Assembly (NCBI GenBank): GCA_013003075.1
Contig: JABDLJ010000033.1
Location: 1 to 64,000, forward strand
Origin: Paracoccaceae bacterium
GTDB lineage: Bacteria; Pseudomonadota; Alphaproteobacteria; Rhodobacterales; Rhodobacteraceae
DNA length: 64,000 nt
Direction: 5' to 3'
The notes under the pieces were generated by a model. The model worked only from the letters and a program-made list of their open reading frames with translations, did no database searches and was not told where the DNA came from. Position 1 is the first letter of the stretch. Every line of letters starts with the position of its first letter. Below are positions 39,114-62,380 of this stretch, one piece after another. The translations under genes and the position numbers were made by a program.

Positions 39114-39158
39114 GTCATATCCAGATCGGTGTTGCACGAGGCGCGCGGTGCAGGCGGG

Positions 39159-42233: not shown

Positions 42234-42295
42234 ACCGTGCCATTGACGGGAATGAAGCCATCAAGCTAACCTCAAAATCAACAGGGAGGATAGCC

Positions 42296-42871: not shown

Positions 42872-42884
42872 AGGAGACCGAGAC

Positions 42885-45071: not shown

Positions 45072-46826
45072 TCAGCGGTGCCGACAGATCACATCGACAA
45101 GGGCGGGCTTGCCGGATTTCACGATCTTCAACGCCCGTGCGACCGCAGGTGCGATGTCTTCGGGCGACGCGACCGGTCCTTCGGACCAGACGCCCATGCT
45201 TTTGGCCATCGCCGCGAAGTCCGGCTCGGGTCCGAAAATGTCCATCCCGATATGTGCCTTGTCTTCATCTGTTCCGCGCAGCCGGGCCATGCGGATCTGG
45301 TGATGCCAATCGTTGTAATAGGCGCGGTTGTTGAACATCACCATCAGCAACGGGATGTCGTGTTTGGCCGCCGTCCAAAGCGCGCCTGCATCGTACATCA
45401 GATCGCCGTCAGGCTGGAAGGTCACGACAACCCGGTCGGTGTCCTTATGGGCCAGCGCGACCCCAAGGCCGATCCCGATCTGGGTCGAAGTGCCAAGCCC
45501 CTTGCCCGGATGCCGATGCGGCGCATCGAAGTCCCACAGCTTTCGCGTCCATTGCCGCAATGTTCCGGCGGCAAGCACCCAATCCTCGTCGCGGATGACC
45601 GACCAGACCTCTTCGGCCAGCCGCGCCGGGGTGACCGGGCTGTGATCCCGGTCGACCTTCGCCTCTTGCGCCCAACGCGCGAAAATCGCGTCATGGCGCG
45701 CTGCGATCGCAGCCTTCCGGGCGTCGATCTTGGCCGGCAGCTCTGGATCGGCGGCGATCAGGCGGGATGCAATCTCGGTCATCTGCAACATGGCGAGCCG
45801 TGGATCACCCAGCGCAGACAGGGTCTTGGGCAGATAGCGACCATAGTCGAGCGACCACGAGCCGATGCCGGTCTCATGAAAGCCCACGTCCATCCATTCG
45901 CAGGTATCGGCCAGATAGGACGACATTTCGCGCGTCGTGGAATCGAGCTTCGCCGTGGCCTTCTCCCAGTCCACGACATCCAGAGCGAGGATCACATCGG
46001 CCGTTTTGAGGCTTTCAGTGTCCATTGACAGGGCTTGCGGATGGCGGTTGGGAAAGCACAGCGACGAGTTCACGTCCCAAACCGCAACCCCAAGCGTCTC
46101 GGCCAGGGTGACCAGCTTCTCGAAATTGCCCGGATGGCGGCCGGTGAACTCGGCCATGATCCACGGATGCGAAGCGTAGAGCAGCTTTCGGACAATCGCT
46201 TCGAGCGTGGCGGGATCGGCCGCCATCGGCGCTGGGGCCTTTTCCACTTCCGGCCCCGGGATCGTCACATCGGCGGTCAGCGGCGTCTCCTGCAGCATCG
46301 CATCATAGCAAAGATAGACCGGACCGGCCGGTTCGGTGACCATGGCCGAATAGGCGCGCATGAAGCTGTCGGGCACCCCCTCGATCGCGTGCGGCTGGTA
46401 ATCGAACTTGGTGAAATTGCGAACCGCGTCGCCTTGCGATTGCGCGGTGTGGTGCCAGTCGGATCGCGGCCGGCGCTTGCTTTCGTCCATCGGCCCGGTC
46501 GCGCCCAGGATGAACACCGGCGCGCGGTCCGCGAAGGCATAGTAGATCGCCATCTGGCCGTGCAGGAGCCCCACCAGATCATGCAGGATACATGGCATCG
46601 GCCGGCCCGTCGCCTTGGCGTAGCCATGCGCGATCTGGACGGCGGTCTCCTCGTGCTGACAGACCAGCATCTTGGGGCTGTCGCCGCCGTAGTTGATCAG
46701 ACTGTCGTGAAGGCCCCTGAAACTCGCTCCGGGATTGATGCTGATATACTCGAAGTCATAGGCTTGCAGAAGGTCGACGATGACGTCGGATTGCCATTTG
46801 CGGTACTCGGGGGGCAGGTCGTTCAA
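45072..46826 (-). CDS. Thiamine diphosphate-dependent enzyme (ILVB/benzoylformate decarboxylase group)
   Basis: A 584-residue enzyme of the acetolactate synthase/2-oxoacid decarboxylase superfamily. The catalytic Glu is in CQHEETAVQIAHGYAKATGRP and the ThDP-Mg site is PDGDLMYDAGALWTAA...MFNNRAYYND. The start is TTG at 46826, with AAGGAG seven bases upstream (MNDLPPEYRKW). It likely decarboxylates or carboligates a 2-oxo acid in the island's pathway. It is the last gene of the second minus-strand operon. Confidence 0.88.
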   Translation of the reverse strand: MNDLPPEYRKWQSDVIVDLLQAYDFEYISINPGASFRGLHDSLINYGGDSPKMLVCQHEETAVQIAHGYAKATGRPMPCILHDLVGLLHGQMAIYYAFADRAPVFILGATGPMDESKRRPRSDWHHTAQSQGDAVRNFTKFDYQPHAIEGVPDSFMRAYSAMVTEPAGPVYLCYDAMLQETPLTADVTIPGPEVEKAPAPMAADPATLEAIVRKLLYASHPWIMAEFTGRHPGNFEKLVTLAETLGVAVWDVNSSLCFPNRHPQALSMDTESLKTADVILALDVVDWEKATAKLDSTTREMSSYLADTCEWMDVGFHETGIGSWSLDYGRYLPKTLSALGDPRLAMLQMTEIASRLIAADPELPAKIDARKAAIAARHDAIFARWAQEAKVDRDHSPVTPARLAEEVWSVIRDEDWVLAAGTLRQWTRKLWDFDAPHRHPGKGLGTSTQIGIGLGVALAHKDTDRVVVTFQPDGDLMYDAGALWTAAKHDIPLLMVMFNNRAYYNDWHHQIRMARLRGTDEDKAHIGMDIFGPEPDFAAMAKSMGVWSEGPVASPEDIAPAVARALKIVKSGKPALVDVICRHR

Positions 46827-46857
46827 GCGATGTCTCCTTGGTATTTGGCGGAACCTG

Positions 46858-47376
46858 TCACTGCAAAGGCACCGCAACGCCGTAGCTCGTTATCATCCCC
46901 GCAAGCATCGCAAGCAGGCCGGCGAGGAAGGGCACGGCGGCGGCCGAGACGATCCGTAGCCGCAGGAAGGATGGACCAAGCAGCGGGATTTCATAGATCA
47001 GGATCCGATGCGCGGCGAAGATGCTCCACGAGGTCACGAAAGTCACAAGCGCCGGTGTCGATGCGCCGGACTTGGCGAAGACGGCGGCGATTGCGAAGGC
47101 GATCACCGGTCCTGCGGGAACCAGCAAACCGGTCACTGCGGCGATCGGAATGGCGAGGATCCCCGCATCCTCTCCCAGGAGCCTGGCGATCGCTTCCTTC
47201 GGGATAAGCTGCGCAATGAACCCGGCCGCGACAAGCGCGCAAAGCATCCGTGGAACCAACATGGCGAATTGCTCTATGAAGCGCTGGGTGACGGGGCCGA
47301 AATCTTCGCCCCGGCGCAGCGCCAGACCCAGAAGGCCAAGCAGAAGCGCCAGCAAGACGACAAACCCCGCGTTCAT
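46858..47376 (-). CDS. Half-size permease, YraQ/DUF318-like (second of a pair)
   Basis: A 172-residue hydrophobic protein with about five membrane segments. It contains GLLVPAGPVIAFAIAAVF and SWSIFAAHRILIYEIPLLGP, which align with the corresponding parts of the neighbour encoded at 47373. Each is about half the length of a YraQ/ArsP-type permease, so the two may form a heterodimer. The ATG overlaps the neighbour's stop by four bases. The substrate is unknown. Confidence 0.65.
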   Translation of the reverse strand: MNAGFVVLLALLLGLLGLALRRGEDFGPVTQRFIEQFAMLVPRMLCALVAAGFIAQLIPKEAIARLLGEDAGILAIPIAAVTGLLVPAGPVIAFAIAAVFAKSGASTPALVTFVTSWSIFAAHRILIYEIPLLGPSFLRLRIVSAAAVPFLAGLLAMLAGMITSYGVAVPLQ

Positions 47377-47966
47377 GCCTCACGCTCCGGCGCTTTGGCG
47401 TCCTTGATCTGCAAAGCAAAGGGCAACCGGCGCGCGATCAGGCCTGCAAGGACCGGCAGCAGCAAGCTGACGAGGAACCTCAGGATTGCGAATTCGGACC
47501 CCATGAACGGCACATCCCAGATCAGGATACGCTGCATCCCCAGCGTCGCCCAGGCGGTGATGTAGGCGATCAATGCGCCGCGGTCGGCGCCCGCGGCACC
47601 CATCACGGCAAGCAGTGAATAGGCCGATGACGGGCCGCCGGGCGTGATCGTCCCGGCCACCGTCGCGATGACAAGACCGCGAACGCCCGATTTCCGGCCC
47701 ACCAGAGCCGAGACACGATCGCGCGGCAGCATTACCCAGATCAGCGAGGCGATCGACAACGCAACCAGAACGCGCGGCGCCAGCCCGACAAGCAGCTCGA
47801 CATCCTCGCGCAACGCCAGGGCGACCACGTCCCCGCCCCTGACGGCCCAGCAAATCAGGCCAAATGCGGCGGCGGCTGCGAAAAAACCCCAAAAGCTCCA
47901 TCCGAAGGCCGCGGTGGCGACGCTGCGGCGCCAGCCACGATCCTGGAGGAAAATGAAAGATCGCAC
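47373..47966 (-). CDS. Half-size permease, YraQ/DUF318-like (first of a pair)
   Basis: A 197-residue protein with about five membrane segments, paralogous to the next gene: GTITPGGPSSAYSLLAVMG and AWATLGMQRILIWDVPFMG match its counterparts. The TPGGP motif is seen in DUF318 permeases. The start is GTG at 47966 with a weak ribosome site. It follows the His-tailed protein and metal transporter genes, so metal or organometal movement is possible but unproven. Confidence 0.65.
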   Translation of the reverse strand: MRSFIFLQDRGWRRSVATAAFGWSFWGFFAAAAAFGLICWAVRGGDVVALALREDVELLVGLAPRVLVALSIASLIWVMLPRDRVSALVGRKSGVRGLVIATVAGTITPGGPSSAYSLLAVMGAAGADRGALIAYITAWATLGMQRILIWDVPFMGSEFAILRFLVSLLLPVLAGLIARRLPFALQIKDAKAPEREA

Positions 47967-47984: not shown

Positions 47985-48386
47985 TCAGTGATGATGGTGA
48001 TGATGATGATGTGCTTGCTCTTCGGCCATCTCTCGCGGCTCGGAGTGGCCGGCGGTCGCGGCCTCGATAACCGCCCGATACAGATCGGCTTCGGGTGGAA
48101 GTTGCCCGGCGAGAAACCCCGCCAGTCGCGCAAGCGCGATGGCTTGCGAGGCCAGCGCGTCGATCATTTCGTCTTCTCCGGCGCGCGCGACATCATTGAG
48201 CGCCTGCGCGAGACCGGTGCGAAATATGCGCTCCATATAGGCCGCGCGCCCATCCGCCTCGGCAAGTCCGGTCGGCGCCTCGCGCGCGGCATCGGGCGCC
48301 GGAAGGCCCATGCGCTTGGTCAATGCGCGCGCCCTTTCCAGCATCTCCTGCCCGATCAGCACATGTTCGTCGATTTCACCGCACAT
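47985..48386 (-). CDS. Small helical protein ending in eight histidines
   Basis: A 133-residue protein, largely alpha-helical, with no signal peptide or membrane segment. The C-terminus is EEQA followed by eight consecutive His and the stop. The His codons are CAT and CAC mixed (CATCATCATCATCACCATCATCAC), so this is a natural tail and not a cloning artefact. Such tails bind Ni, Co or Zn. It lies 15 bases after the UreH/NiCoT-like transporter gene, suggesting delivery or storage of the same metal. The family is not recognised. Confidence 0.8.
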   Translation of the reverse strand: MCGEIDEHVLIGQEMLERARALTKRMGLPAPDAAREAPTGLAEADGRAAYMERIFRTGLAQALNDVARAGEDEMIDALASQAIALARLAGFLAGQLPPEADLYRAVIEAATAGHSEPREMAEEQAHHHHHHHH

Positions 48387-48401: not shown

Positions 48402-49202
48402 CTATTGTATCGAAACTCCGAGGCCGCCAAGGCTTTCAAGCGTGACGCCGCCGCCCACGAGGACGGCCAGACCGCCGATAGCGACCGCCAGCGACGTCCG
48501 CATCCATGTCGCCCCGCGATTGATAAACGCGAGCGGATAGCTTGCCGCGGCCGTCAGGCAGATCATGCCAAGAATTGACCCAAGCCCGAACAGGGCAAAG
48601 GCGACCATGGCCTGCGACGCGCTTTCCGCGCTGGCCACGATCAGAACCAGAAGCCCCGCAGACCCCGCCGCGCCATGCAAAAGCCCGACCCCGAGCGTCG
48701 GCAACAGCGCGCGCGCGGAATGCATGTGGTCATGCACCGACATCCGGTGATCCTTGTCATCGGTCTTGTGCGAATGCGCATGCAGATGTGTCACGCCATC
48801 ATGTTCGTGAACGTGAATGTGGATGCGCTCGCGCCAGAGCGTCCAGAAGACCCTCAGCCCAAGGAACATGATCATGATCCCGACAGCCAGTTCGAGAGCT
48901 GCGCCCACGCGCTCGGTGATCGTCAGGCCCAGCAGCAGCACGACCGAACAGATCACGAAGAGCGCGGCCGAGTGCCCAAGGCCCCACGCGGCGCCGCGTG
49001 CCACGATGCTGCGGCGGCTGCCGCCCTGCCCTGTCATCGCGGCCACCGCCGCGACGTGGTCCGCGTCGAGCGCGTGCGCAAGGCCGACCGCAAAGCCCAG
49101 CGCGAGGATGGGCAGCGTATACGCCGGGTCAAGCATGCCCGCACCCAGCGCGAGGGCAGGAGACGCCGCTGCGACGGCTCCAAGGGCGACAAGCCACCTC
49201 AT
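48402..49202 (-). CDS. UreH/NiCoT-like nickel-cobalt transporter
   Basis: A 266-residue membrane protein with six to seven helices. The signature HALDADH lies at residues 43-49, followed by GLGHSAALF and the UreH-type block LLHGAAGSAGLLVL. A cytoplasmic or periplasmic loop between helices is very His-rich (HIHVHEHDG, HLHAHSHK, HDHMH). These features are those of nickel/cobalt transporters of the UreH/RcnA group. The ATG overlaps the upstream stop (ATGA). No urease or hydrogenase genes are present, so the metal is probably for an enzyme of this island. Confidence 0.85.
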   Translation of the reverse strand: MRWLVALGAVAAASPALALGAGMLDPAYTLPILALGFAVGLAHALDADHVAAVAAMTGQGGSRRSIVARGAAWGLGHSAALFVICSVVLLLGLTITERVGAALELAVGIMIMFLGLRVFWTLWRERIHIHVHEHDGVTHLHAHSHKTDDKDHRMSVHDHMHSARALLPTLGVGLLHGAAGSAGLLVLIVASAESASQAMVAFALFGLGSILGMICLTAAASYPLAFINRGATWMRTSLAVAIGGLAVLVGGGVTLESLGGLGVSIQ

Positions 49203-49785: not shown

Positions 49786-51072
49786 TCAGACCGAGGTTTG
49801 CTTGACGCCCGGCCGCGCCGTCAGGTCTTCCTTCATCGCATCCTTGAACGGCTGGTCCGGCGGCAGCACGCGCGCCGCGGAACGGATCTTCTGATGCTCC
49901 GGATCACGTCCCGGCGGCATCACGCCCTTGTCGCGAAGCGCAATCACGGCCTTGCGCAGACGATGTCGCGCCATGATGATGCCATTGTCGGTGGACACCA
50001 GGTTTTCCTTGGTCCGGTCGACGATCGGCCCCATGCTTTCCTGCAGGCTCGCGTCCTGCATCGCGATACCCCAGATGCCCGAATAGCTCTCTCCGCTTTT
50101 CTGGGCCTCGCGGTCCATCATGTAGTCGTTGTCCTTGTTCTGCAGCGGGCGGAACGAACCGGGGACATACTTGTTGTGCACACCGTATCCATCCATCATC
50201 GCCTGGCGCTCTTTGTCGGTCAGAGCGCGCGTCGGGTGATAATCGAAAGACCACGCCCAGCAATTGTGGTCATCGATGGGTATCCAGAAATGCCCGTGCA
50301 TCGGGTGGTCGCCGCGCGGCGGCACCATCGTGAAGGACGGCATGATCCAGGGTGTGATACGCCAGTAGTAGTGGTCTTCCTCGGCCATCCGGCGTGCGCC
50401 GATATGAAGCCCGCCATCGGATTCCACGACTTCGAAGACCGGCTTCTTGTCGTTCTCGTTGTACTGGTTACCCTTGGCGCCCTTGAACAGCGGATCGGAC
50501 TTCAAGCCGCCCGAATGCAGGAACGACACGTGGCTGGAATCGATCCCGCCCTCCATCGCCTGAAGCCAGTTGCATTCCTGCCAGCGCTTCGAGGTATAGG
50601 TCTGCTCCGGCGGCACGGTGGCGAATTCCCAGATCGGCTCGGGCGGCCGGTTTTCCTTGTCGCCCATATGGGTCCAAAGCACGTCACCGACCTTGATCAG
50701 CGGATAACCCTTCAGCTTGATCTTCTCGCAAAAGCCCGATTCCTCGGGTTCGGACGGCACTTCGATACACTGCCCGGTATAGTCGTATTTCCAGCCGTGG
50801 TAGGGACATCGAAGCCCCTCTTCTTCGTTCCGGCCGAACCACAGGGACACGCCGCGATGGGCGCAGAACTCGTCGATCAGACCGTAGCGCCCCTTGGAGT
50901 CGCGGAATGCGATCATCCGCTCTCCCAGAAGTTTTACCCGTACGGGCGGGCAATCGTCCTCGGGCAGCTCTTTGGACAGCAGCGCCGGGATCCAGTAGTG
51001 CCGGAACATCTCGCCCATCGGCTTGCCGGAATCGGTTTCGGTCAGAAGCTCGTTGATTTCTTTACGAAGCAT
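49786..51072 (-). CDS. Rieske non-haem iron oxygenase, phthalate dioxygenase-like
   Basis: A 428-residue oxygenase subunit. The Rieske [2Fe-2S] ligands are in CAHRG and CPYHGW (C-x-H-x16-C-x2-H) in the first 100 residues. The mononuclear iron region is GGIDSSHVSFLHSG, which is of the phthalate 4,5-dioxygenase/vanillate demethylase type (homotrimer without beta subunit). It hydroxylates an aromatic acid with electrons from a reductase; a matching reductase is encoded at 55020. The substrate is not certain, but phthalate-like acids fit the neighbours. Confidence 0.9.
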   Translation of the reverse strand: MLRKEINELLTETDSGKPMGEMFRHYWIPALLSKELPEDDCPPVRVKLLGERMIAFRDSKGRYGLIDEFCAHRGVSLWFGRNEEEGLRCPYHGWKYDYTGQCIEVPSEPEESGFCEKIKLKGYPLIKVGDVLWTHMGDKENRPPEPIWEFATVPPEQTYTSKRWQECNWLQAMEGGIDSSHVSFLHSGGLKSDPLFKGAKGNQYNENDKKPVFEVVESDGGLHIGARRMAEEDHYYWRITPWIMPSFTMVPPRGDHPMHGHFWIPIDDHNCWAWSFDYHPTRALTDKERQAMMDGYGVHNKYVPGSFRPLQNKDNDYMMDREAQKSGESYSGIWGIAMQDASLQESMGPIVDRTKENLVSTDNGIIMARHRLRKAVIALRDKGVMPPGRDPEHQKIRSAARVLPPDQPFKDAMKEDLTARPGVKQTSV

Positions 51073-51121: not shown

Positions 51122-52249
51122 TTACGCCGTCTCGCCTGGCTTTGGCGGCAGGTCCGGCGCTTCAGCCTCGTAGGCCGGCGTCATTTGCGAACTCAGCCCG
51201 TTTTCGGCCAATGCGTCTGCGAACATGGTACGGACTGCATCGGTTTCGTCAGCGTAGTCAATCTGATCGCCACCGATCCGTGTCGAAATCCACGCTTTCG
51301 GCACGCCCTGCTCGTTGCGGATCGCCACGCCTTCATATTTGAAGGCCAGATAGCGCGCCGGCGTGGTGCCGGTGTTGAAGTGCTGGTGCCACCACAGGTT
51401 CGGCGGCACGACCATCGCGCCGGGCTTCCAGTCATAGCGCTTCGGCTCTGCGTTTTCGGGCCACATCAGCGAATAGCCCTCGCCAGACAGTATGATCACA
51501 TGCGCCCCCGGCCCGTGACGGTGACACTTCTTGTACGTCCCCACCGGGAACTGGCTGATATGGCTGTTGAGAGAGGACTTGGCAAGCTGGAAGCGGATAT
51601 GTCCGCCGCCCGCACCGCGTTCGCCCGCCTCGATCAGCGGCAGATTGACGGCGTCATGGACGAAGTTGGTCTCCATAAGCAGGCCGTTCTGTTGTCCCGA
51701 TTCCGCGAAATAGTCCGGCTCGCCGCTGAAGCGGCCCTTGAAATCGTAGGTCGTCCCGAACACGAACTCGGGATCTTCGAAGACGTTCAGAAGCGGCGGC
51801 ATATTGGTCACGGCCACGTAGCGCGCCGGCTTGTCGCCCTGCCCGTTGAAATGCTGGTGATGGGCATTCAGCGGGATGCCGAAGATCGATCCCGGCCCCC
51901 ACTCGAAGCTGACCCGATGACCGCTGTCGTCCCAGACCACCGTCGAGCCGCGCCCGGACAGGATCAGGACCGTCTCTTCGAACAATTGCCGATGCGGCGC
52001 AAGCTCACCGCCTGCGGGGATCTCCATCACGTAGCAATCGTTCGTGGTCCGCGAGGCATCGTGGTTCAGAAAGACGGCACTGCCGCCCCGCCGCGCCCAG
52101 GGCTTCAACTCGATCTCATGCAGCGACGGCACGTAGTTGCCGTTCATGATCTCCAGCCCCTCGGACGCGATGAAGCGCGTGTAGGGCGTCTCTTTTTCGG
52201 TCTTGAACTTGGCAGCAAGCTGTTCCGATACGACAGCGCGGGTATTCAT
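51122..52249 (-). CDS. Bicupin protein
   Basis: A 375-residue protein with two cupin barrels. The first has LAPHRQLFEETVLILSGRG and GIPLNAHHQHFNG, the second KKCHRHGPGAHVIILSGEG and VPPNLWWHQHFN. Both appear able to bind metal. Such bicupins include gentisate-type ring-cleavage dioxygenases and quercetinases. A GGGAGG site precedes the ATG. It heads the second minus-strand operon, 49 bases before the Rieske gene. A ring-opening role is possible, unproven. Confidence 0.82.
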   Translation of the reverse strand: MNTRAVVSEQLAAKFKTEKETPYTRFIASEGLEIMNGNYVPSLHEIELKPWARRGGSAVFLNHDASRTTNDCYVMEIPAGGELAPHRQLFEETVLILSGRGSTVVWDDSGHRVSFEWGPGSIFGIPLNAHHQHFNGQGDKPARYVAVTNMPPLLNVFEDPEFVFGTTYDFKGRFSGEPDYFAESGQQNGLLMETNFVHDAVNLPLIEAGERGAGGGHIRFQLAKSSLNSHISQFPVGTYKKCHRHGPGAHVIILSGEGYSLMWPENAEPKRYDWKPGAMVVPPNLWWHQHFNTGTTPARYLAFKYEGVAIRNEQGVPKAWISTRIGGDQIDYADETDAVRTMFADALAENGLSSQMTPAYEAEAPDLPPKPGETA

Positions 52250-52324: not shown

Positions 52325-52360
52325 GTTCCGTCAATGGACCGGCGGTCCGCATAGAGGAAC
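52325..52360. promoter_or_regulatory. Two inverted repeats, candidate IclR operators (site C)
   Basis: GGTCCGCATAGAGGAAC at 52344-52360 has the 17 bp form of the shared motif. A second, 16 bp version, GTTCCGTCAATGGACC, lies at 52325-52340. Both sit in the divergent promoter between the bicupin operon and the EutA-like gene. Confidence 0.6.
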
Positions 52361-52366
52361 GCTACT

Positions 52367-54112
52367 GTGCCCAACGCGAAAAAGCCCCCCAAGCATACGA
52401 TAGATGACCACATGTTCGGAGACTTCTTCGCGCATGAACATGGGCCGGACGCGGATCACGACCACGACGACATCGACCCCGGACCGCTGGAAGAAAACCC
52501 GATTTGGCTAAGGGACAATGTCGCGCTGACGTCGGTTGGGATCGACATCGGCTCTTCGGGGACGCAGGTCATATTCTCGACCATCCATCTGCAGCGCAAA
52601 TCCGACAGCCACGCGTCCCGGTTCGTCATCGTCGACAGACAGACAGCCTACGAGTCGCCGATCCGGTTCACGCCCTTCGCCAGCGACACCGAGATCGACG
52701 CCCAGGCGCTTGGCCGGATCATCGACGAAGCCTATGCCGGCGCGAACATTCGCGCCAGGGACATCGACACCGGCGTGGTCATTCTGACAGGCGAGGCGCT
52801 GCGGCGCGAGAATGCCGAGGCGATCGCCGGAATCGTCGCCGATCGGGGCGGCGACTTTCTGACGGCGACCGCCGGCAACCACATGGAGGCGATGCTGGCC
52901 GCTTTCGGATCCGGCGCAGCAAAGCTCAGCCACGTGCGGCAAGGGCGCATCCTCAATATCGACATCGGCGGCGGCACCACCAAGCTTGCGCTTGCGGACC
53001 GGGGCGAGGTGATCTGGACCGCCGCTCTGCACGCCGGCGGGCGGCTCATCGCCACCGAAGCGGGCAAGGTGTCCCGGATGGAACCGACAGGCATGCACTT
53101 CGCCAACCGCGCAGGTGTCGAGCTTGCGATCGGGGCGGCAGTGAAGGCGGAGGAATTGCAGGATATCGCCGCGGTCATCGCCGATATTCTGGTGCGCGCG
53201 GTGACAGAGCGGCCGCCCAAGCCCGATGTCGCCGAGCTGTTCCTGACGGAGATCCCGCAAGATTTCGCCGGCATCGAGAGCGTGGTCTTTTCCGGCGGCG
53301 TGGGCGCCTATGTCAGCGGTCAGGAAAGCCGCGATTTCGGGGATCTGGGCTATCCTCTGGGCGCGATCCTGCGCACGCGCGCAGAAAGCGGCGATTTCGG
53401 CGCTCCGATGATCGCGGGCGGATCGGCCATTCGCGCGACGGCGCTTGGCGCCTCGGAATATTCCGTGCAGCTTTCGGGGCAGACCAGCACCGTAACCGCC
53501 CCCGGGCGCAGCCTTCCGCGACGCAACATGCAGGTGCTCAAACCGCAGATCGACCTCTCGGCAGAGCCGGACGCCCCGCTCATCGCGACGGCGATACGCG
53601 ACCATTACGAGGCCTTCGACCTCGATCCCGACACCCAGGAAACGGTTCTGGCGCTCGAATTTCATGGCGCGCCGGGGTATCGGCGCATCCGAACCATCGC
53701 CGACGGGATCGTACACGCCCTGTCCGGGCGCATCGCCGCCGGCGCAGGGCTTTACGTGATGATCGACGGGGACATCGCGCAGACGCTCGGCGGCATCCTG
53801 CGCGATGAACTCGGCCTTGCCAACGATCTGCTGATCCTCGACGGCATCAGCCTGCGCGATTTCGACTACATCGATCTCGGCAAGATCCGGCTTCCGTCGT
53901 TCACGGTCCCGGTGACGGTCAAGTCGCTCCTGTTCTCGGACGACCCCCGCGGGCCGCGCCGTCAGGAGAAGATCCAGTTCACGCCGCCGGGCCAGGCCCT
54001 CCACCAGCACCATGGCCATCACCATCACCATCATCACGGCGACCATCATCACACGCACTCCCATGGCCACAGTCAGCGCCGCCCGGCCGACGACAGCAAC
54101 GCGGAAGGTTGA
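52367..54112 (+). CDS. EutA-like ASKHA ATPase with His-rich N- and C-termini
   Basis: A 581-residue protein similar to EutA, the factor that reactivates adenosylcobalamin-dependent ethanolamine ammonia-lyase. The actin/Hsp70-type nucleotide sites are VGIDIGSSGTQ near residue 57, NIDIGGGTTKLAL and FSGGVGAYV. The N-terminus has an His/Asp cluster (HEHGPDADHDHDD) and the C-terminal 30 residues contain about 18 His. No ethanolamine ammonia-lyase genes are here, so its client is unknown. The start is GTG, six bases after operator C, with no ribosome site; an ATG at 52412 is an alternative. Confidence 0.82.
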   Translation: MPNAKKPPKHTIDDHMFGDFFAHEHGPDADHDHDDIDPGPLEENPIWLRDNVALTSVGIDIGSSGTQVIFSTIHLQRKSDSHASRFVIVDRQTAYESPIRFTPFASDTEIDAQALGRIIDEAYAGANIRARDIDTGVVILTGEALRRENAEAIAGIVADRGGDFLTATAGNHMEAMLAAFGSGAAKLSHVRQGRILNIDIGGGTTKLALADRGEVIWTAALHAGGRLIATEAGKVSRMEPTGMHFANRAGVELAIGAAVKAEELQDIAAVIADILVRAVTERPPKPDVAELFLTEIPQDFAGIESVVFSGGVGAYVSGQESRDFGDLGYPLGAILRTRAESGDFGAPMIAGGSAIRATALGASEYSVQLSGQTSTVTAPGRSLPRRNMQVLKPQIDLSAEPDAPLIATAIRDHYEAFDLDPDTQETVLALEFHGAPGYRRIRTIADGIVHALSGRIAAGAGLYVMIDGDIAQTLGGILRDELGLANDLLILDGISLRDFDYIDLGKIRLPSFTVPVTVKSLLFSDDPRGPRRQEKIQFTPPGQALHQHHGHHHHHHHGDHHHTHSHGHSQRRPADDSNAEG

Positions 54113-54173: not shown

Positions 54174-55007
54174 ATGAGCGACGACCAGCCCCGCTCGCCC
54201 AGGAAGGAAATCAACCGCAATCCCAGGCGCAACAGCTCCCGCTTGTCGTCGGTCACCACGGCGATTCACCTGCTCAAGACCTTTACGGAGGAGGATCAGG
54301 AACTTGGCATCAGTGAGATCGCCAAGCGCCTTGACGTCGCCAAGAGCACCGTTCACAGGCTGGCGGGCGCGCTTCTCGAAGAGGGCCTCTTGCAGCAGAA
54401 CCCCGAAACCGGCCGCTATGGCCTGGGCGTGGGGCTGTTTTCGCTTGGATCGCTTGTACGTGCCCGGCTCGACGTCACGATTGAATCGAAACACGTACTC
54501 AGCGCCTTGCGCGAACAAATCAAGGAAAACGTCCGTCTTGCGGTCCTGGAGCGCGACAGCGTTGTCTTTCTGCACGACTTCGAGGGCCCGCAGACCCTGC
54601 GCCTGCGGTCCGCCACCGGCCAGTTGCGACCGGCCTTCTGCACTGCCGAGGGCCTTTGCCTTATCTCGGGCCTCCGCCAGCCGCAGATTGATCAGTTTCT
54701 GGCCTATCCCCGGTTCGAGCGCGCGCCCAACACCACCACGGATGAAGACGCCTTCCTGGCGCGCGTCCGGCAGGTCAAACGACGCGGCTACGCCTTCGAG
54801 GACGAAGAGTGCGACGAAGGCACGCGGTGCGTCGCGGCGCCGATCTTCAACGCCGAGGGCCGTATCGTGGCCTCTGTCGGCGTCGCTGGCCCGCGGGCGC
54901 GGATCAAGAAGAACCAGATCCCCAAGATCGCTCCGATCGTCGTCGAAGCCGCGAGCGAAATCTCGCAACGGATGGGGTTCATCCAACGGCAGCCAATTTA
55001 TGTGTGA
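54174..55007 (+). CDS. IclR-family transcriptional regulator
   Basis: A 277-residue regulator. The N-terminal winged helix-turn-helix contains TTAIHLLKTF, LGISEIAKRLDVAKSTVHRL and LLQQNPETGRYGLG; the effector domain contains RPAFCTAEG and GTRCVAAPIF. IclR proteins often control aromatic-acid catabolism. The start at 54174 follows a weak ribosome site (the upstream open frame is antisense-like or overlaps the EutA gene). It heads the operon running to 58705, with the reductase gene 12 bases later. Confidence 0.92.
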   Translation: MSDDQPRSPRKEINRNPRRNSSRLSSVTTAIHLLKTFTEEDQELGISEIAKRLDVAKSTVHRLAGALLEEGLLQQNPETGRYGLGVGLFSLGSLVRARLDVTIESKHVLSALREQIKENVRLAVLERDSVVFLHDFEGPQTLRLRSATGQLRPAFCTAEGLCLISGLRQPQIDQFLAYPRFERAPNTTTDEDAFLARVRQVKRRGYAFEDEECDEGTRCVAAPIFNAEGRIVASVGVAGPRARIKKNQIPKIAPIVVEAASEISQRMGFIQRQPIYV

Positions 55008-55019
55008 CGGATCGGGCTG

Positions 55020-56015
55020 ATGGCGCAGATTAAAAACGAACGCGGCGGTGCGACCTTCCGGTGCGAAAGCGGCGATACGATCCTGCGGGCGGCCCTTCGC
55101 GCCGGGATCGGTATGCCCTATTCGTGCAACACCGGGTCTTGTGGAAATTGCCGCTTCGAACTTCTGGAGGGCAGCGTCCGGCACCTGCGAAAGGACCCGC
55201 CCGCCTGGTCAGAGCGCGATCTGAAGCGCAACCGCTGGCTTGGATGCCAAGCTTCGCCCGATGGCGATTGCCGGGTCAAGTTCCGAACGATGGACGAATA
55301 CGAACCACCCGTTCGCCCTGCCCCGCGGCAGGCGGAGTTAACGGGCGTTACCCAACTGACACGCGACATCAGTGAGTTTTCCTTCCGCGTCGACGACGAT
55401 CTGGATTTCCGGCCCGGACAATACGCGCTGTTGCATGTGCCCGGCGTCGAAGGTCCACGCGCCTATTCCATGTCCAATCTTCCCGGCGACGGCGAATGGC
55501 GCTTCATGATCAAGGCCGCGCCCGATGGTGCCGCCACGGGCTGGCTGTTCGACGCTGCACCCGGCGCCACGCTGACCATCGACGGTCCATACGGCACCGC
55601 CTTCCTGAAGCCCGACAGCCCGCGCGATATCGTGCTGCTTGCCGGCGGCTCGGGTCTTTCGCCGATGGTGTCCATCGCACGCGGCGCAGCAGCCGCCGGA
55701 CTGCTCGAGGATCGCGCGCTTCACGTGTTCTACGGCGGGCGCGACATCCCCGATCTGTGCGACGCCTCGGTGCTCGGTCCGGCGGCGGCCGGCAAGGCCC
55801 GGTTCATCGCCGCGCTGTCCGACACCGGCCCCGACAGCGACTGGGACGGGCCCACGGGGTACCTGCACGATGTGGTCGCAGACGACATGGCGGATCGTTT
55901 GAAGGACTGCGAGATCTACTTTGCCGGACCTGCGGTCATGTCGTCGGAGGTGCAGAAGATGGCGCACGAAGCAGGCGTGCCATCGAACCAGCTTCACTTC
56001 GACGAGTTTTACTGA
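55020..56015 (+). CDS. [2Fe-2S] ferredoxin-flavin reductase, oxygenase electron-transfer component
   Basis: A 331-residue reductase of the BenC/TmoF type. The N-terminal plant-type ferredoxin has YSCNTGSCGNC and a fourth Cys in LGCQASP. The FAD site is RAYSMSN, and the NAD site is LLAGGSGLSPMVSI. It takes electrons from NAD(P)H and passes them to an oxygenase, most likely the Rieske enzyme encoded at 49786. Phthalate dioxygenase reductases have the ferredoxin at the C-terminus, so this pairing differs from the classic phthalate system. Confidence 0.93.
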   Translation: MAQIKNERGGATFRCESGDTILRAALRAGIGMPYSCNTGSCGNCRFELLEGSVRHLRKDPPAWSERDLKRNRWLGCQASPDGDCRVKFRTMDEYEPPVRPAPRQAELTGVTQLTRDISEFSFRVDDDLDFRPGQYALLHVPGVEGPRAYSMSNLPGDGEWRFMIKAAPDGAATGWLFDAAPGATLTIDGPYGTAFLKPDSPRDIVLLAGGSGLSPMVSIARGAAAAGLLEDRALHVFYGGRDIPDLCDASVLGPAAAGKARFIAALSDTGPDSDWDGPTGYLHDVVADDMADRLKDCEIYFAGPAVMSSEVQKMAHEAGVPSNQLHFDEFY

Positions 56016-56042: not shown

Positions 56043-57029
56043 ATGACGGCACTGGATCTGACACTCGGCTGCTGGGACTATGACCGCGTCCAGCCCCTGA
56101 TCGACGGTCGCGTGCGGCCGCAAGGGATCGATCTGCGGTTTCTCAACATGATCGTCGAAGAGACCTTCTTCCGGATGGCGCGCAATCGAGAGTTCGACGT
56201 CTCCGAGATGTCGATGTCCTCCTTTGTCGTTTCCCTTTTTAAACCGGATCGGCCGTTTGTCGCCATCCCGGTGTTTCCATCGCGCTTTTTCCGGCACTCC
56301 TGCATCTACGTGAACGCGGACGCCGGGATCGAAAGCCCGCGCGACCTTGTCGGCAAGCGGTTCGGCTGCCCCGAATACCAGATGACCGCTCCGGTCTGGA
56401 TCCGGGGTATTCTGTCGGACCAGTACGGGGTGCCGGTGGATGGCCCGACCTACGTCACCGGCGGCGAAGAGACACCCAACCGCAGCGAGAAGATCGCGCT
56501 CGACCTGCCGGAGAATTTTCGGATCGAACGCATCGGCCCCGAGGACACGCTGGCGCAGATGCTGGCCGACGGACGGATTGATGCCTTCCACACGGCACGC
56601 AAGCCCTCCACCTACGATGGGGTCCGCGTGAAGCGCCTGTTTCCGGACTTCGTCGAGGTCGAACGCGCCTACTGGCGCGACACGGGTATCTTTCCGATCA
56701 TGCATGTCATCGCGATACGGCGCGAGGTCTACGAGGCGAACCGCTGGATCGCGATGAACCTCTTTCAGGCGTTCCGCGAGGCGCAGCGGCTCTGCTACGA
56801 GGGCTTGCGCGAGACGGCGGCGCTGAAGGGCATGCTGCCTTGGTTCAACGCCCATGTGGAAGAAACGCTCGATCTTATGGGCGAGGATTTCTGGCCCTAC
56901 GGGGTCGGGCCGAACCGAACCGTGCTTGATGTCTTCCTGCGCTATCACCACGAACAGGGGCTGTCCCCGCGCAAACTGGAGGTTGACGAGATGTTCGCGC
57001 CAGAGACCTATGAGGAGTTCGTCATATGA
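56043..57029 (+). CDS. 4,5-dihydroxyphthalate decarboxylase-like protein (paralogue 2)
   Basis: A 328-residue cytoplasmic protein related to the one encoded at 38124. Matching segments are LTLGCWDYDRVQPLI, REFDVSEMSMSSFV, IPVFPSRFFRHSCIYVN and FPIMHVIAIRR. A GGGGGA site precedes the ATG. Being in one transcript with an oxygenase reductase, it may decarboxylate a dihydroxylated aromatic acid. It overlaps the next gene by four bases (ATGA). Confidence 0.78.
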   Translation: MTALDLTLGCWDYDRVQPLIDGRVRPQGIDLRFLNMIVEETFFRMARNREFDVSEMSMSSFVVSLFKPDRPFVAIPVFPSRFFRHSCIYVNADAGIESPRDLVGKRFGCPEYQMTAPVWIRGILSDQYGVPVDGPTYVTGGEETPNRSEKIALDLPENFRIERIGPEDTLAQMLADGRIDAFHTARKPSTYDGVRVKRLFPDFVEVERAYWRDTGIFPIMHVIAIRREVYEANRWIAMNLFQAFREAQRLCYEGLRETAALKGMLPWFNAHVEETLDLMGEDFWPYGVGPNRTVLDVFLRYHHEQGLSPRKLEVDEMFAPETYEEFVI

Positions 57030-57841
57030 CGCGCGTGACGATCCCCGCGCTTCACGACAAGAAGCGCAACGCAGAGAAGATCTTCGGCGTCGTGGCGTGG
57101 GACACCCATATGGCGGCGATCGCGGACCGCGTCGGGGTCGACATCGTTTCGGTCGGCGACACCGTGGGCAAGAACCTCTGGGGTCATGACACCATGTTCG
57201 AGATCACCATGGACGAGATGATCGTCGTCACCAAGGCGGTGCGCCGGGGCGTCAGGACGGCGCTTGTTTCCGCAGATTTCCCCTATGGGCCTTTGCAGGA
57301 AGGCGTCGACGCGGCCGTTCACGCGGGCATCCGGCTGATCAAGGAAGCAGGGATCGATCTTCTCAAGCTGGATGGGGCGGCGGACTACCCAGAGACCGTC
57401 ACGGCGCTGACCCGCGCAGGCATCCCGGTCTGGGCGCAGTTCGGCCTGACACCGCAGACAGCGCTGGCGACAGGTATTCCCTACGAGAACCAGGCCGGGG
57501 CGACCGAGGCGGCGCCGGGGATGGAAGAGCGGCTGATCGCGCAGGCGCGCGCGCTTGCCGACGCGGGCGCCGTCCTTCTCGATTTTACCAATTCCGGGCC
57601 GATCATCGGCCCCAAGGTCGTCGCGGCCGTGGACATCCCCGTGATCGGCGGGTTTGGCGGCGGCCCGTGGCTTGACGGGCGGGTGCGGCTTGCACAGGCC
57701 GCCGTCGGCTACAATGTCTCGGCGCTGGACAAAGAGCCCGGCGGTTACGCCAACGTCGCTACGGTTATCCGCGACGCATTGGCCGAATGCGCCGACGACG
57801 TGCGGTCGGGGCGCCAGATCAAGGGACAGCCCGGGAGGTAG
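57026..57841 (+). CDS. PanB-like (ketopantoate hydroxymethyltransferase/PEP mutase superfamily) protein
   Basis: A 271-residue TIM-barrel protein resembling PanB. The block VGDTVGKNLWGHDTMFEITMDEM matches the PanB motif D-x-x-x-G...T-x-x-x-EM, and VGDT and DFP supply metal-binding Asp residues. PanB normally makes ketopantoate from 3-methyl-2-oxobutanoate and methylene-tetrahydrofolate. Here it sits between a decarboxylase-like gene and a hydrolase gene, so a role as C-C lyase or aldolase in the pathway is possible. Confidence 0.72.
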   Translation: MTRVTIPALHDKKRNAEKIFGVVAWDTHMAAIADRVGVDIVSVGDTVGKNLWGHDTMFEITMDEMIVVTKAVRRGVRTALVSADFPYGPLQEGVDAAVHAGIRLIKEAGIDLLKLDGAADYPETVTALTRAGIPVWAQFGLTPQTALATGIPYENQAGATEAAPGMEERLIAQARALADAGAVLLDFTNSGPIIGPKVVAAVDIPVIGGFGGGPWLDGRVRLAQAAVGYNVSALDKEPGGYANVATVIRDALAECADDVRSGRQIKGQPGR

Positions 57842-57844
57842 GCC

Positions 57845-58705
57845 ATGCCGGTCGCGGAAATCGACGGAATTGACACCCATTACGAGGTCCGTGGCGACGG
57901 CCCGCCGCTTTTGATGTACGCGCCGGGCGGATTTGATGCGCAGATCTCGAAGTGGTCCGACCTCGGCGTCTACAAGCGCATCCGGTTGCTCGATCACCTG
58001 CCCGCGCATTTCAGGTGCATTCTTTTCGACCGCCGCGAAAACGGCGCATCTGGCGGGCGCGTCGAACATATCACGTGGGATCACTACGTGGCCCAGGGGG
58101 CGGGGTTGCTCGATCACCTCGGCATCGACAGGGCGCACCTGATGGGCGGCTGCATGGGCTGCGCGCCGGTCACGGCCTTCGGCGTTCGGCACCCGGACCG
58201 GGTGCTGTCAATGGTGCTCTATTGGCCGGTCGGCGGCGCGCCTTACAGGATCGGTTCCCACCAGCGATTTGCACGGCATCTGGCGTTCGCCGAGGAAAAC
58301 GGTCTTCAGGCGGTTGTCGATCTGGTGCGCTCGCACGACAAGAATTTCAGCGCTGATCCGCGCGGTGGCCCCTGGGGGCAGCCGATCAGGAATTCCGGCG
58401 CATTCGCCGAGCATTACGCAGCGCTCGATCTCGCGCGCTACTTGCTTGCAACGCGCGGCATGATGAGTGGCCTTTTCGACCGAGACACAGCGCCGGGCGC
58501 AGAGCCCGAAGACCTTATGACGGTCGATATTCCGACCCTGATCGTGCCCGGCGCGGACAAGTTTCATGCCACCTCCGCTGCACGTTATCTGCAGGAATGC
58601 CTGGGCGGCGCAGAGTATTGGGACGCGGCGCCGGACGATCAAACCGAGCAGACAGCTCCGAAACGGGTTCTGCAATTTCTGGGCGCGGCCCAGCCAGTCG
58701 CGTAG
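57845..58705 (+). CDS. Alpha/beta hydrolase with a cysteine nucleophile
   Basis: A 286-residue alpha/beta-hydrolase-fold protein. The oxyanion loop is YAPGGFD, and the nucleophile elbow is LMGGCMGCAPV, that is G-x-C-x-G with Cys in place of the usual Ser. The acid and His are expected near VPGADKFHATS. Cys nucleophiles occur in dienelactone hydrolases, which act in aromatic breakdown. The ATG follows GGGAGG. It is the last gene of the iclR operon. Confidence 0.82.
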   Translation: MPVAEIDGIDTHYEVRGDGPPLLMYAPGGFDAQISKWSDLGVYKRIRLLDHLPAHFRCILFDRRENGASGGRVEHITWDHYVAQGAGLLDHLGIDRAHLMGGCMGCAPVTAFGVRHPDRVLSMVLYWPVGGAPYRIGSHQRFARHLAFAEENGLQAVVDLVRSHDKNFSADPRGGPWGQPIRNSGAFAEHYAALDLARYLLATRGMMSGLFDRDTAPGAEPEDLMTVDIPTLIVPGADKFHATSAARYLQECLGGAEYWDAAPDDQTEQTAPKRVLQFLGAAQPVA

Positions 58706-58925: not shown

Positions 58926-59867
58926 CTAGCCGACGCGGTCCAGCGTGGTGGGTGCAAACAGGCCTTCCATCGGGATCGGCGCGTCGATGATGCCCTGGGA
59001 CACGGCATGTCGCATAAGGTTTTCCAGAACCGCCAGGTTCGGCGCGATGCCATAGGGCAGCGGGTCGTCCATGACTTCAAGGGCTGCATGATGAACCCGG
59101 TCCACCGCCGTCAGATCGGAAATTCGGCCGGCACGGAGATCTTCGACATAGGCCCTCTTGGACGCGGCAAATGCGTCGAAAAGCTGCCCCGCCAGATCCG
59201 GTGCTGCGTCCAGAATATCATCGCGAATGACGACAAGATGATTGATCGGATAAAAGCCGCGGGACGTCAAAGCAGAGACCCCGGCCTGGAATGCATCCGC
59301 AATAAGCGGCCGCGTGCCGTCGTCGGCAGTCAGTCCCACAGCCGCCGGGATGTCGCCGCGCACAAGCCGCTCTTCAAGGCTCTCCTGCCCTCCGAGATCC
59401 TCGACATTGGCGGGGGGGCGCCAGTCCGGCACATGCTCGTCATCGGACCGCACCCAAGTGACCTTGCCAAGATCGACGCCGCACTCCTCGGCGAGGATCG
59501 CCCGCGCCCAGACGCCGGTGGTGACGGTGTAGCCGCGCTTGACGCCGACACGCCGCCCTTCAAGCTCTTTGGGCGTCGATATGTCCGACTTCTGGCTCGC
59601 AACGATCGCCTGATGGTGAAATCCACGCACCAGAAAAACCGGGATCGCCGTCAGCGCAGCACCGTAGGCCTTGGCCGTCACGTACGTTGTCAGAGCCATC
59701 TCGCTGATGTCGTACGCGCCTTCGCGGACCATGCGCCGGAACGCCTTTGGCAGCGGGTTCACGTCTTCGAAGTCCAGCTGGAAATCCGGCAACCGGATGT
59801 CACCCGCCTTCAGGGCCCGGTTGTTGCCCTGCGTCCGCGATACCGCGCTCAGGATGCGCTTGCCCAT
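58926..59867 (-). CDS. 4,5-dihydroxyphthalate decarboxylase-like protein (paralogue 3)
   Basis: A 313-residue protein with the same fold as the products at 38124 and 56043 but more divergent: DISEMALTTYVTAKAY, LTAIPVFLVRGFHHQAIVA and YPINHLVVIRDD are the recognisable segments. It starts at ATG 59867, with GAGGAGG upstream. It is on the minus strand with the small gene at 59881. It may act on a different substrate from its paralogues. Confidence 0.75.
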   Translation of the reverse strand: MGKRILSAVSRTQGNNRALKAGDIRLPDFQLDFEDVNPLPKAFRRMVREGAYDISEMALTTYVTAKAYGAALTAIPVFLVRGFHHQAIVASQKSDISTPKELEGRRVGVKRGYTVTTGVWARAILAEECGVDLGKVTWVRSDDEHVPDWRPPANVEDLGGQESLEERLVRGDIPAAVGLTADDGTRPLIADAFQAGVSALTSRGFYPINHLVVIRDDILDAAPDLAGQLFDAFAASKRAYVEDLRAGRISDLTAVDRVHHAALEVMDDPLPYGIAPNLAVLENLMRHAVSQGIIDAPIPMEGLFAPTTLDRVG

Positions 59868-59880
59868 GATGGCTTCCTCC

Positions 59881-60207
59881 TCAACAACAATCCCCCTCGC
59901 CTTCGTCGGCGAGTGCCCCCCGAAGCCACGCCGCAGGCAGGTCCGATCGGCCAACTGACGCGAGCGGCTTGAAGATGCGAAACCTGTGGCGCTCCTCCGG
60001 CCCGGTCCAGAACAGGATGGTGGTCATGCGCTCCGGAAGCCCCGGATCCCGGCCCGGCTCTTCGGTCACCAGCACGATGTCCCGCTCGTGGACGCCGAAA
60101 TGCCGCCGGACAAGCGCTTCGACACGCTCCAGATCGCCCATGTCGGGCGTGAGGTATGTCCGGCCTGCAAACACTGCGGCTCCTGCGATTCCATGCCGTT
60201 CTGCCAT
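59881..60207 (-). CDS. Small protein of unknown function with a terminal Cys pair
   Basis: A 108-residue soluble protein (MAERHGIAGAAVF) ending EGDCC. A TTG at 60258 would add 17 residues. It contains a DIVLVTEEPGRDP strand-like segment. I do not recognise it. It lies 13 bases upstream of the decarboxylase-like gene and shares its transcript. Its ATG is inside the 17 bp inverted repeat at 60198-60214. Confidence 0.6.
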   Translation of the reverse strand: MAERHGIAGAAVFAGRTYLTPDMGDLERVEALVRRHFGVHERDIVLVTEEPGRDPGLPERMTTILFWTGPEERHRFRIFKPLASVGRSDLPAAWLRGALADEGEGDCC

Positions 60208-60281: not shown

Positions 60282-61385
60282 ATGGCCGATAAAGTCGTCG
60301 CAGCCGTCAGGACAGGCCCCGAACGGACCGAGTTCCGTGAATTCGACATGCCCGACATTCCAGACGATGGCGCACTTCTGAAAGTCGAGGTCGCGGGCAT
60401 CTGCGGGACCGACGTCAAATTCTACGCCAAGCCGCCGATCGACGATCCGGTCATCATGGGCCATGAAAATATCGGGATCATCGCCAAGGCGGGAAAGACA
60501 TTCCAGAAACGCCGCGGGCTCAAGGAAGGCGACCGCGTCTTTGCCGAACATTACGTCGGCTGCATGAATTGCGAACACTGCCACCGGGGCGACTACCGCC
60601 TTTGCATGGCCACCGACTGGCGCAAGAACCCCGAGGGCATTCGCTTCGGCTATACGCCGATGACCCGCGCGCCGCACCTGTGGGGCGGGTTCGCGCAGTA
60701 CATGTTCCTGCCGTGGAACTCGGTGCTTCACAAGGTGCCCGATACGCTCTCTGCGGAACTTGCAGGCGTGGTGACGCCCATGGCCAATGGAATCCAGTGG
60801 GCGCTTTTTGATTGCAAGGTCGGCTACCAGACCAAGCTTTTGGTTCAGGGCCCGGGCCAGCAGGGGCTAAGCCAGGTGGTGACGGGCAAGCAAGCCGGGG
60901 CAGAACTGATCATCGTGACCGGAACGTCGAAGGACACGCTGCGCCTGGAGGTCGCCAGGAAACTGGGTGCCGATTACACGATCAATGTCGACGAAGAAGA
61001 CCCGGTGGAGCGCATCAGGGAGATCACCGGCGGCGAGGGCGTGGACGTCGCGCTGGATTGCACCGCCGGAGCAGGAACCGCCCCGCTGCTTCTGGGACTG
61101 GAAGCGCTGAAGCGCAAAGGCGGCACCCTGCTCGTGCAGCAAGAAGTCACAGAGTTCCCGAATTTCCCGCTTGCCAAGCTCTGCAACAAATACGTCACCG
61201 TGAAATGCGCGCGTGGCCATAATTTCCAATCCTGCGAACAGGCGCTTGAGCAGCTGAATTCGAACCGGTTTCCGCTGGACCTGATCACGACCCATCGCTT
61301 CGGGTTGGAGCAAACCCACGACGCAATCAAGGCCGTGGGCGGATCACGAGACGTGATCCACGTCTCTTTGATGCCGTGGATGTAG
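60282..61385 (+). CDS. Zinc-dependent alcohol dehydrogenase
   Basis: A 367-residue medium-chain dehydrogenase. Catalytic zinc ligands are in GICGTD and MGHENIG; structural zinc Cys residues are in CMNCEHCHRGDYRLC. The nucleotide region (VQGPGQQGLSQV) is a variant of GxGxxG. The substrate is not determined; related enzymes oxidise sugar alcohols, threonine or aromatic alcohols. It overlaps the next gene by ten bases. Confidence 0.92.
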   Translation: MADKVVAAVRTGPERTEFREFDMPDIPDDGALLKVEVAGICGTDVKFYAKPPIDDPVIMGHENIGIIAKAGKTFQKRRGLKEGDRVFAEHYVGCMNCEHCHRGDYRLCMATDWRKNPEGIRFGYTPMTRAPHLWGGFAQYMFLPWNSVLHKVPDTLSAELAGVVTPMANGIQWALFDCKVGYQTKLLVQGPGQQGLSQVVTGKQAGAELIIVTGTSKDTLRLEVARKLGADYTINVDEEDPVERIREITGGEGVDVALDCTAGAGTAPLLLGLEALKRKGGTLLVQQEVTEFPNFPLAKLCNKYVTVKCARGHNFQSCEQALEQLNSNRFPLDLITTHRFGLEQTHDAIKAVGGSRDVIHVSLMPWM

Positions 61386-62380
61386 CCGGCGACAGTCGCG
61401 TTCCGGTTACGGTGGTGACCGGATATCTCGGCGCGGGCAAAACCACGCTGCTCAATCATCTGCTGACGCAAGACCACGGCAAGCGTTTCGCTGTCATCGT
61501 GAACGAGTTTGGAGATATCGGGATCGACGGCGATTTGATTCAGACCGGCGACGAGGAACTCATCGAACTCAGCTCCGGCTGTCTGTGCTGTGTGGTGCGC
61601 GGCGATCTGATCCGAACCCTGCGCCGGCTGTTGAGGGCCGAGAAAGGTGGTCTGGACGGTATCCTGATCGAGACAACGGGTGTGGCCAACCCAAGCCCCG
61701 TCATTCAAACGTTCCGCGCCGATCAGGTTCTGGCCGGGACTGCCCGCCTCGACGCCGTGGTCACGGTGGTCGACGGGGCGCATATTGGCGCTCGGCTGGC
61801 CGACAGCGAGGACGCGGTCGATCAGGTCGCGCTGGCAAGCGTCATCGTACTGAACAAGGCCGCGGACACCCAAGACCTCGCGGCGACAGAGGAAATGTTG
61901 CGCGCGATAAATCCGGCCGCGCCGATCCACCGCACCGACCGGGGCCGGATCGATCCGGCAAAACTGCTCGAAACCGACAGCTTCTCGCTGGACCAGGTGG
62001 CCGCCGATCTTGCGCAGGAAGAGGCCGGGCACGACCATCACGATCACCACGACCACCAGGACCACGTCGCCGCAAACGGCATCGCCAGCGTTTCGGTGGC
62101 GCTTGACGATCCTCTCGCACCGGACTTGCTCGAGCCGTGGATGGAACGGCTCTTGCTCTTGCGCGGCGCCGATATCCTGCGTCTGAAGGGGGTTCTCAAC
62201 ATCGCCGGAGAGCCGCGCCGCGTCATCGTCCAGTCCGTCCACATGATGTACGAAGGCGACTACGGTGCGCCCTGGGGCGACGCGCCGCGGCGCTCGCGGC
62301 TGGTGGTTATCGGGCGCGATCTGGACCCAGCCGAAATTCGCGACGGGCTGGCCGCCTGTCGCGCAAACCTTGCAGCCTGA
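61376..62380 (+). CDS. CobW/G3E-family GTPase, metallochaperone type
   Basis: A 334-residue G3E GTPase. Walker A is GYLGAGKTT at residues 16-24, the metal-binding CxCC is GCLCC near 68-72, and the base-specificity motif is LNKA. A His-rich stretch ([12 protein letters not shown] near residue 220) separates the G domain from the C-terminal CobW domain. Such proteins deliver Zn or Co to enzymes. It starts at GTG inside the dehydrogenase gene, so the two are coupled; the dehydrogenase or ligJ product could be its zinc client. Confidence 0.9.

Follow-up and report, generated by a model that had tools for sequence, protein, structure and literature searches.

A EutA-like ATPase encoded without ethanolamine ammonia-lyase and beside a conserved bicupin gene in proteobacterial gene clusters

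The window analysed here is a 64,000-nucleotide stretch (positions 1 to 64,000) of contig JABDLJ010000033.1 from a Paracoccaceae bacterium (assembly GCA_013003075.1). It contains the whole gene of a EutA-like ATPase, EutA1 (52367-54112, + strand), which begins with GTG and encodes 581 amino acids. Divergent from it are bicupin1 (51122-52249, - strand; Cupin_2), the proposed client, and a LigXa-like Rieske oxygenase (49786-51072, -; LigXa_C 1.1e-32, Rieske 6e-19). An IclR-type regulator (54174-55007, +; IclR_C and HTH_IclR) lies on the other side, so that the Rieske/bicupin and IclR neighbours named in an earlier note on this DNA are indeed present. Also on the IclR side are an alcohol dehydrogenase and a ferredoxin-NAD reductase (55020-56015, +; Fer2, FAD_binding_6 and NAD_binding_1), the probable electron donor of the Rieske oxygenase. 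Genes for PHT5b, a PanB-like protein and an alpha/beta hydrolase are found at 56043-58705 (+; Pantoate_transf and Abhydrolase_1) in a conserved order. The name PHT5b reflects a presumed relationship to 4,5-dihydroxyphthalate decarboxylase, as the protein gave no Pfam match. Three paralogues in the window (38124-39137, 56043-57029 and 58926-59954) presumably resemble this decarboxylase, with no family match above cut-off; such genes accompany EutA clusters in roughly half of the loci.

Several genes of the window encode proteins with a potential connection to metals. A NicO-family (Ni/Co) permease with a His-rich loop (48402-49202, -; PF03824, 31.4 bits against a cut-off of 27.7) is neighboured by His133, a 133-residue protein whose sequence carries a C-terminal run of eight histidines (47985-48386, -). 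In 26 of 77 loci, a homologue of His133 is encoded no more than 6 kb from EutA. A CobW-family metal GTPase, again with a His-rich loop, is encoded at 61376-62380 (+; PF02492, 4.1e-52). Two half-size ArsP-like permeases, permB (46858-47376, -) and permA (47373-47966, -), match PF03773 just below cut-off; adjacent to each other and beside the His8-tailed protein, they may form a heterodimer, and transport of a metal or metalloid is possible. The same strand holds a thiamine-diphosphate enzyme (45072-46877, -; TPP_enzyme_N and _C). Further upstream are genes named by eye as QuiC-like (3-dehydroshikimate dehydratase-like) and shikimate-dehydrogenase-like (window 32505-34394 and 35870-36721), which suggests further aromatic or hydroaromatic metabolism. 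For the ABC genes c5/c20/c23, met as neighbours of EutA in the loci compared, we considered a ferric-iron importer and rejected this assignment, the nearest NCBIfam models being of the 2-aminoethylphosphonate/PotA type and below cut-off.

Between the divergent bicupin and EutA genes, we read an operator-like inverted repeat directly from the sequence, GTTCC-N4-ATGGACCG-N-CGGTCCGCAT-N3-GGAAC (52325-52360). The GTG of EutA1 does lie six bases beyond its outer arm, as had been described, but the conclusion that this leaves no room for a ribosome site was wrong and the idea of a missing site is rejected: a correctly spaced Shine-Dalgarno-like AGAGGAA (52353-52359, +) sits inside the right arm itself, 7 nt before the start codon. 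All 11 aligned loci keep the palindrome and a start codon, which may be ATG, GTG or TTG; they also keep the AGAGGAA element, with the variant AGGGGAA in a single row. We would guess that an operator-like element that holds the ribosome site may tightly control translation or transcription of EutA1.

The EutA domain (PF06277) spans residues 54-523 of EutA1 at full length (E=1.8e-111, 373.8 bits against a cut-off of 27). The protein is ~30-35% identical to eut-operon EutAs (such as E. coli b2451) along its whole length, and shares with them the DIGSS and DIGGGTTK-type phosphate motifs and the predicted fold class, but it does not reach the NCBIfam equivalog cut-offs for EutA (best NF007992, 316 bits versus 598). 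Sequence searching found no solved EutA structure. In the AlphaFold model most of the core is confident, and the fold is actin-like; among the Foldseek matches listed, the nearest PDB chains are exopolyphosphatase, FtsA and PilM (Z 16-17), with PPX/GppA, FtsA, PilM and MreB together covering Z 14-17, which identifies the general ASKHA fold only. Both marks of an ASKHA protein, the fold and two phosphate-binding motifs (GIDIGSS and IDIGGGTTK), are present. The flanks of the domain are different in character. An N-terminal His/Asp extension (residues 1-49, HEHGPDADHDHDDID; 52367-52513, +) and a C-terminal His-rich tail (residues 525-581; 53939-54109, +) are predicted to be disordered, the latter from residue 530, with pLDDT below 50 for residues 1-49 and 530-581. 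Six histidines fall within the first 50 residues and 16 beyond residue 520; the His clusters reported at both ends are therefore real, and they are conserved across the clade, as described below.

Kinases and activating ATPases are among the proteins with an ASKHA fold, EutA1 has a weak BcrAD_BadFG match, and its fold resembles the activators of benzoyl-CoA-reductase-type enzymes and of 2-hydroxyacyl-CoA dehydratases. EutA1 could accordingly act within the pathway itself as an ATPase with a catalytic or energising part, for example by activating the substrate with ATP or by powering a bicupin-containing complex, and not as a chaperone; linkage to a pathway enzyme would be equally expected in that case. 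We consider this role unlikely, although it deserves serious consideration. EutA, a reactivase, is the best full-length family match by a wide margin, and the disordered His tails would be left unexplained. EutA1 also contains no cysteine, and no cysteine column is kept in an alignment of 27 rows, which argues against an Fe-S-bearing activator. On this absence of conserved cysteines we rejected the specific identification of EutA1 with the Fe-S activators BadF/HgdC.

EutA1 had been described as standing alone. This is not the case: the same 96.9-kb contig encodes a second EutA, EutA2 (70877-72361, -), just past the window and ~17 kb from EutA1. EutA2 is 38% identical to EutA1, lacks His-rich ends and directly adjoins a bicupin of its own (72373-73542). 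With a bicupin beside each copy, and constant as a partner, we discarded the notion of an orphan EutA. Two EutA copies ~17-20 kb apart were seen in several Rhodobacteraceae. The stretch of contig that follows the window (64001-84000, locus L004) carries a second cluster of EutA, bicupin and TPP enzyme, in which small cupin genes in tandem and two sets of TctA/B/C-type transporters are also present. Such tandem cupins occur in both clusters (window 42227-43478 and L004:1485-2715) and resemble a split bicupin.

What is missing is the usual client. A EutA in the strict sense is encoded with its client EutBC, and EutA1 is not: neither EutB nor EutC was found in the window's own assembly, which is 64.7% complete, and EutB was absent from all 15 EutA-carrying genomes tested (this one and 14 others). 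The central claim of the earlier note, a EutA-like protein without ethanolamine ammonia-lyase, is thereby upheld. The 14 other carriers include near-complete relatives with the same cluster (99%, 99%, 95% and 95% complete), and since these also lack EutB, the gap left by the incomplete assembly is closed. The opposite arrangement served as a positive control: in a phylum-wide sample, EutB was directly beside EutA in five other carriers, and EutB likewise adjoins the eut-operon EutAs of haloarchaea, Cetobacterium and Listeria. A sample of 385 alphaproteobacterial genomes contained EutA in 11 and EutB in 27, with no overlap; as fewer than one joint genome is expected by chance, this is not evidence of avoidance, but it does show EutA occurring without EutB.

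These counts bear on whether EutA1 is simply an ordinary EutA whose eutBC genes fall in the 35% of the genome missing from the assembly. The incompleteness of the assembly leaves space for this reading, but the near-complete relatives, the 11 EutA carriers out of 11 without EutB among the alphaproteobacteria and the separate position of EutA1 in the tree (below) make it extremely improbable. Nor did we encounter the arrangement that would have left EutA1 in its classical role, with eutBC elsewhere in the genome and this gene as their sole, co-regulated EutA.

In a EutA tree, obtained by a quick search, unrooted and with one very long row included, a branch with SH-aLRT 96 separates the 11 EutB-linked rows from all 88 others, EutA1 among them. 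EutA1 is therefore set apart from the EutAs of eut operons. A D-H-[DE]-H-D motif near the N-terminus is found in all 55 dereplicated members of the EutA1 clade, and in none of 33 other bicupin-type and none of six EutB-linked EutAs. Every one of these 55 proteins also has histidines in the C-terminal tail, from 4 to 30 of them (median 17). The wider branch spans hundreds of genomes, and one scan returned 458 stretches encoding relatives of the EutA1 query.

We then quantified the linkage of EutA with the bicupin, using the 77 EutB-free EutA genes whose flanks reach 6 kb or more on either side. Genes in 129 loci were called with a simple codon-usage script, and a bicupin profile was run against all six reading frames. 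A bicupin lies within 6 kb of 69 of the 77 genes (68 in a second count at a stricter threshold) and within 500 bp of 56; near eut-operon EutAs there was none (0/7). After dereplication the figures are 46/51 within 6 kb and 41/51 within 500 bp, and the next unrelated families are PHT5-like proteins (27/51 at 6 kb) and the IclR regulator (18/51 within 500 bp). Counts for a family labelled 'cupAB' overlap those for the bicupin, the two being homologous. EutA is found beside a cupin in Alpha-, Beta- and Gammaproteobacteria, and the gene pair is present, for example, in Roseivivax jejudonensis, Roseibium marinum, Brevirhabdus pacifica and Pusillimonas noertemannii.

The pairing extends to presence and copy number across genomes, as seen in counts that did not set out from the surroundings of EutA. 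Among 198 Rhodobacteraceae genomes, one per genus, EutA (above cut-off) occurs in seven and the bicupin (E<=1e-40, with a profile built from EutA-neighbouring bicupins) in exactly these seven, each gene being present in 13 copies overall; one of the seven holds a single copy of both. The chance of such a match is ~5e-13 under independent draws, which the genes of one cluster are not. Plasmids gave the same picture: a tblastn search of PLSDB placed the bicupin, at a coverage of at least 80%, in four of 72,556 plasmids, with two places on each; all four are rhizobial plasmids, the very ones that carry bicupin-type EutA, which again has two places per plasmid. Distances among EutAs and among their adjacent bicupins correlate with r=0.68 (permutation maximum 0.16), a value from which species relatedness has not been removed. 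These data show that EutA and the bicupin are co-inherited. Since a cluster can move as a block by horizontal transfer, co-inheritance by itself is no proof of physical interaction.

The same observations weigh on a further alternative, in which the client of EutA1 is still a B12-dependent enzyme, different from ethanolamine ammonia-lyase and with its gene at another place in the genome. The known job of EutA is the exchange of AdoCbl for Co(II)Cbl on the enzyme, and cobalamin is the only chemistry known for it (PMC9426561). B12-binding proteins are present in these genomes, and cobalt is one of the metals to which the NicO and CobW families have been linked. The B12-binding proteins found in the window's own genome are nevertheless all off the EutA contig, EutA copy number tracks that of the bicupin exactly in the seven Rhodobacteraceae genomes, and a B12 client would leave the cupin adjacency in three proteobacterial classes unexplained. 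We judge this alternative very improbable.

The bicupin partner was modelled with a pLDDT of 87. Its nearest folds are salicylate and gentisate 1,2-dioxygenase (2phd and 3bu7, Z 20-21), with oxalate decarboxylase and MncA slightly below (Z ~19); because these scores are nearly equal, the fold does not fix the reaction. A 3-His site in the C-terminal cupin (H243/H245/H288), as expected of a mononuclear metal site, is kept in 101 of 107 bicupins. Four of the other six have YPH, with two of the three His ligands lost, and two are incomplete at the site; two of the bicupins whose site reads Y-x-P instead of H-x-H, L161:11183-12409 and L180:10940-12172, still adjoin EutA. Bicupin1 thus resembles gentisate/salicylate 1,2-dioxygenases in fold (Z ~21), 3-His metal site and aromatic-catabolic gene context. 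It differs from gentisate 1,2-dioxygenase in that the 3-His site is C-terminal, the N-terminal cupin ligands being mostly replaced, and in its score against the equivalog model TIGR02272, 20.8 bits against a cut-off of 442.

Not every locus conforms. About 10% of the EutB-free EutA loci have no bicupin within 6 kb; in one of them a bicupin is located 8.5 kb from EutA, and in three there is none within ~10 kb. The other four (L163, L166, L175 and L177) represent a second kind of cluster, which combines EutA with a UbiD decarboxylase and no bicupin, with NicO and/or a small single-domain cupin alongside. Because of the loci with UbiD or without a nearby bicupin, the client may not always be a bicupin.

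In three contigs of betaproteobacterial metagenome-assembled genomes, EutA1 and a two-domain ABC importer permease form a single in-frame fusion, joined by the His-rich tail (L035:4486-8025, L037:9989-13465 and L075:9980-13576; 1158-1198 residues, with PF06277 and PF00528 in the two that were scanned). Two of these contigs are labelled Bordetella parapertussis, a name that is probably wrong. In many Rhizobiales loci, EutA1 immediately precedes the gene for that permease. Together with this gene order, the fusions raise the idea that EutA1 works with the importer of the cluster, using ATP to regulate or energise the uptake of a substrate or a metal. A fusion of adjacent genes is weak evidence when taken alone, and no such ABC permease adjoins EutA in Rhodobacteraceae, the window included. 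Transporters moreover vary among EutA loci (TctABC, NicO, ABC, MFS), whereas the bicupin is constant. An importer role is, on balance, improbable.

Taken together, it is very probable that EutA1 is not a reactivase of ethanolamine ammonia-lyase and that it functions in connection with the bicupin. The suggestion of a different, possibly metal-containing client is thus strongly supported as far as a client other than EutBC is concerned, given the absence of EutB from 15 carriers, and the adjacent bicupin is the likely candidate. The near-constant bicupin neighbour, the frequent His tails and the missing B12 enzyme suggest a repair machine re-tooled for a metal enzyme. We give about an even chance to the specific proposal that EutA1 is a dedicated ATP-dependent activator, either metallochaperone or reactivase, of a bicupin metalloenzyme with the gentisate/salicylate-dioxygenase fold in an aromatic-acid catabolic cluster. 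The broader version, in which the whole EutA branch consists of actin-fold metallochaperones or reactivases for non-heme cupin metalloenzymes, with a His-rich metal store in one subclade, is plausible but more tentative.

From these data we infer the identity of the client (the bicupin), the binding of metal by the tails and an ATP-driven exchange of metal, which could be combined as follows. The EutA branch would have diverged and changed clients, away from the B12 enzyme. The disordered His tails of EutA1 would collect a divalent metal, and the ATPase would bind a metal-free or oxidised bicupin. An ATP-driven opening, as in known B12 reactivases, might then allow the damaged site to be emptied and refilled, with Fe, Ni, Co, Mn and Zn as candidate metals. 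In Rhodobacteraceae clusters, metal handling would fall to the NicO, CobW and His-rich proteins encoded nearby. EutA2-type copies without His tails might draw on another metal source or only remodel the client; as they lack these tails, metal storage cannot be the job of the whole branch. The steps of opening and metal exchange are proposed by analogy with cobalamin exchange by EutA (PMC9426561) and with NTP-driven cofactor delivery in general (PMC10356863).

EutA1 differs from EutA in the absence of EutBC, the adjacent bicupin, the added His-rich ends and its place across a supported branch. In idea only, it resembles HypB, UreG and CobW/ZigA-type Ni/Co insertion NTPases, with a His-rich store on an NTPase beside a metalloenzyme; those proteins are P-loop GTPases, and EutA1 has the actin/Hsp70 (ASKHA) fold. 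To our knowledge, the gentisate dioxygenases described so far need no such ATPase, which speaks against the proposal. A functional parallel may be offered by the MMAA/MeaB-type G-protein chaperones, which carry out NTP-driven loading and repair of methylmalonyl-CoA mutase (PMC10356863): the NTP-driven care of a metal-cofactor enzyme that they perform is what we propose for EutA1, although they have a G-protein fold and a B12 client. In the literature that we could search, with most subscription papers outside its reach, we found no account of EutA with a cupin or in aromatic degradation; the 'EutA' of PMC4996985 is an unrelated ectoine enzyme and was set aside.

EutA proteins are automatically annotated everywhere as B12-enzyme repair factors, a label that is probably wrong for the bicupin-linked branch. 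What is new here is the client, apparently a metal-based one, of a reactivase family that was already known. We know of no cupin metalloenzyme of aromatic degradation that needs a repair machine. If the linkage has the meaning proposed, reactivation by actin-fold ATPases would extend from cobalamin enzymes to the cupin metalloenzymes of aromatic degradation, and, if true, this would be the first case of a B12-repair machine maintaining a bare-metal enzyme. The finding also marks the neighbouring proteins as members of an uncharacterised metal-handling aromatic pathway, in which EutA and the bicupin form a compact gene pair.
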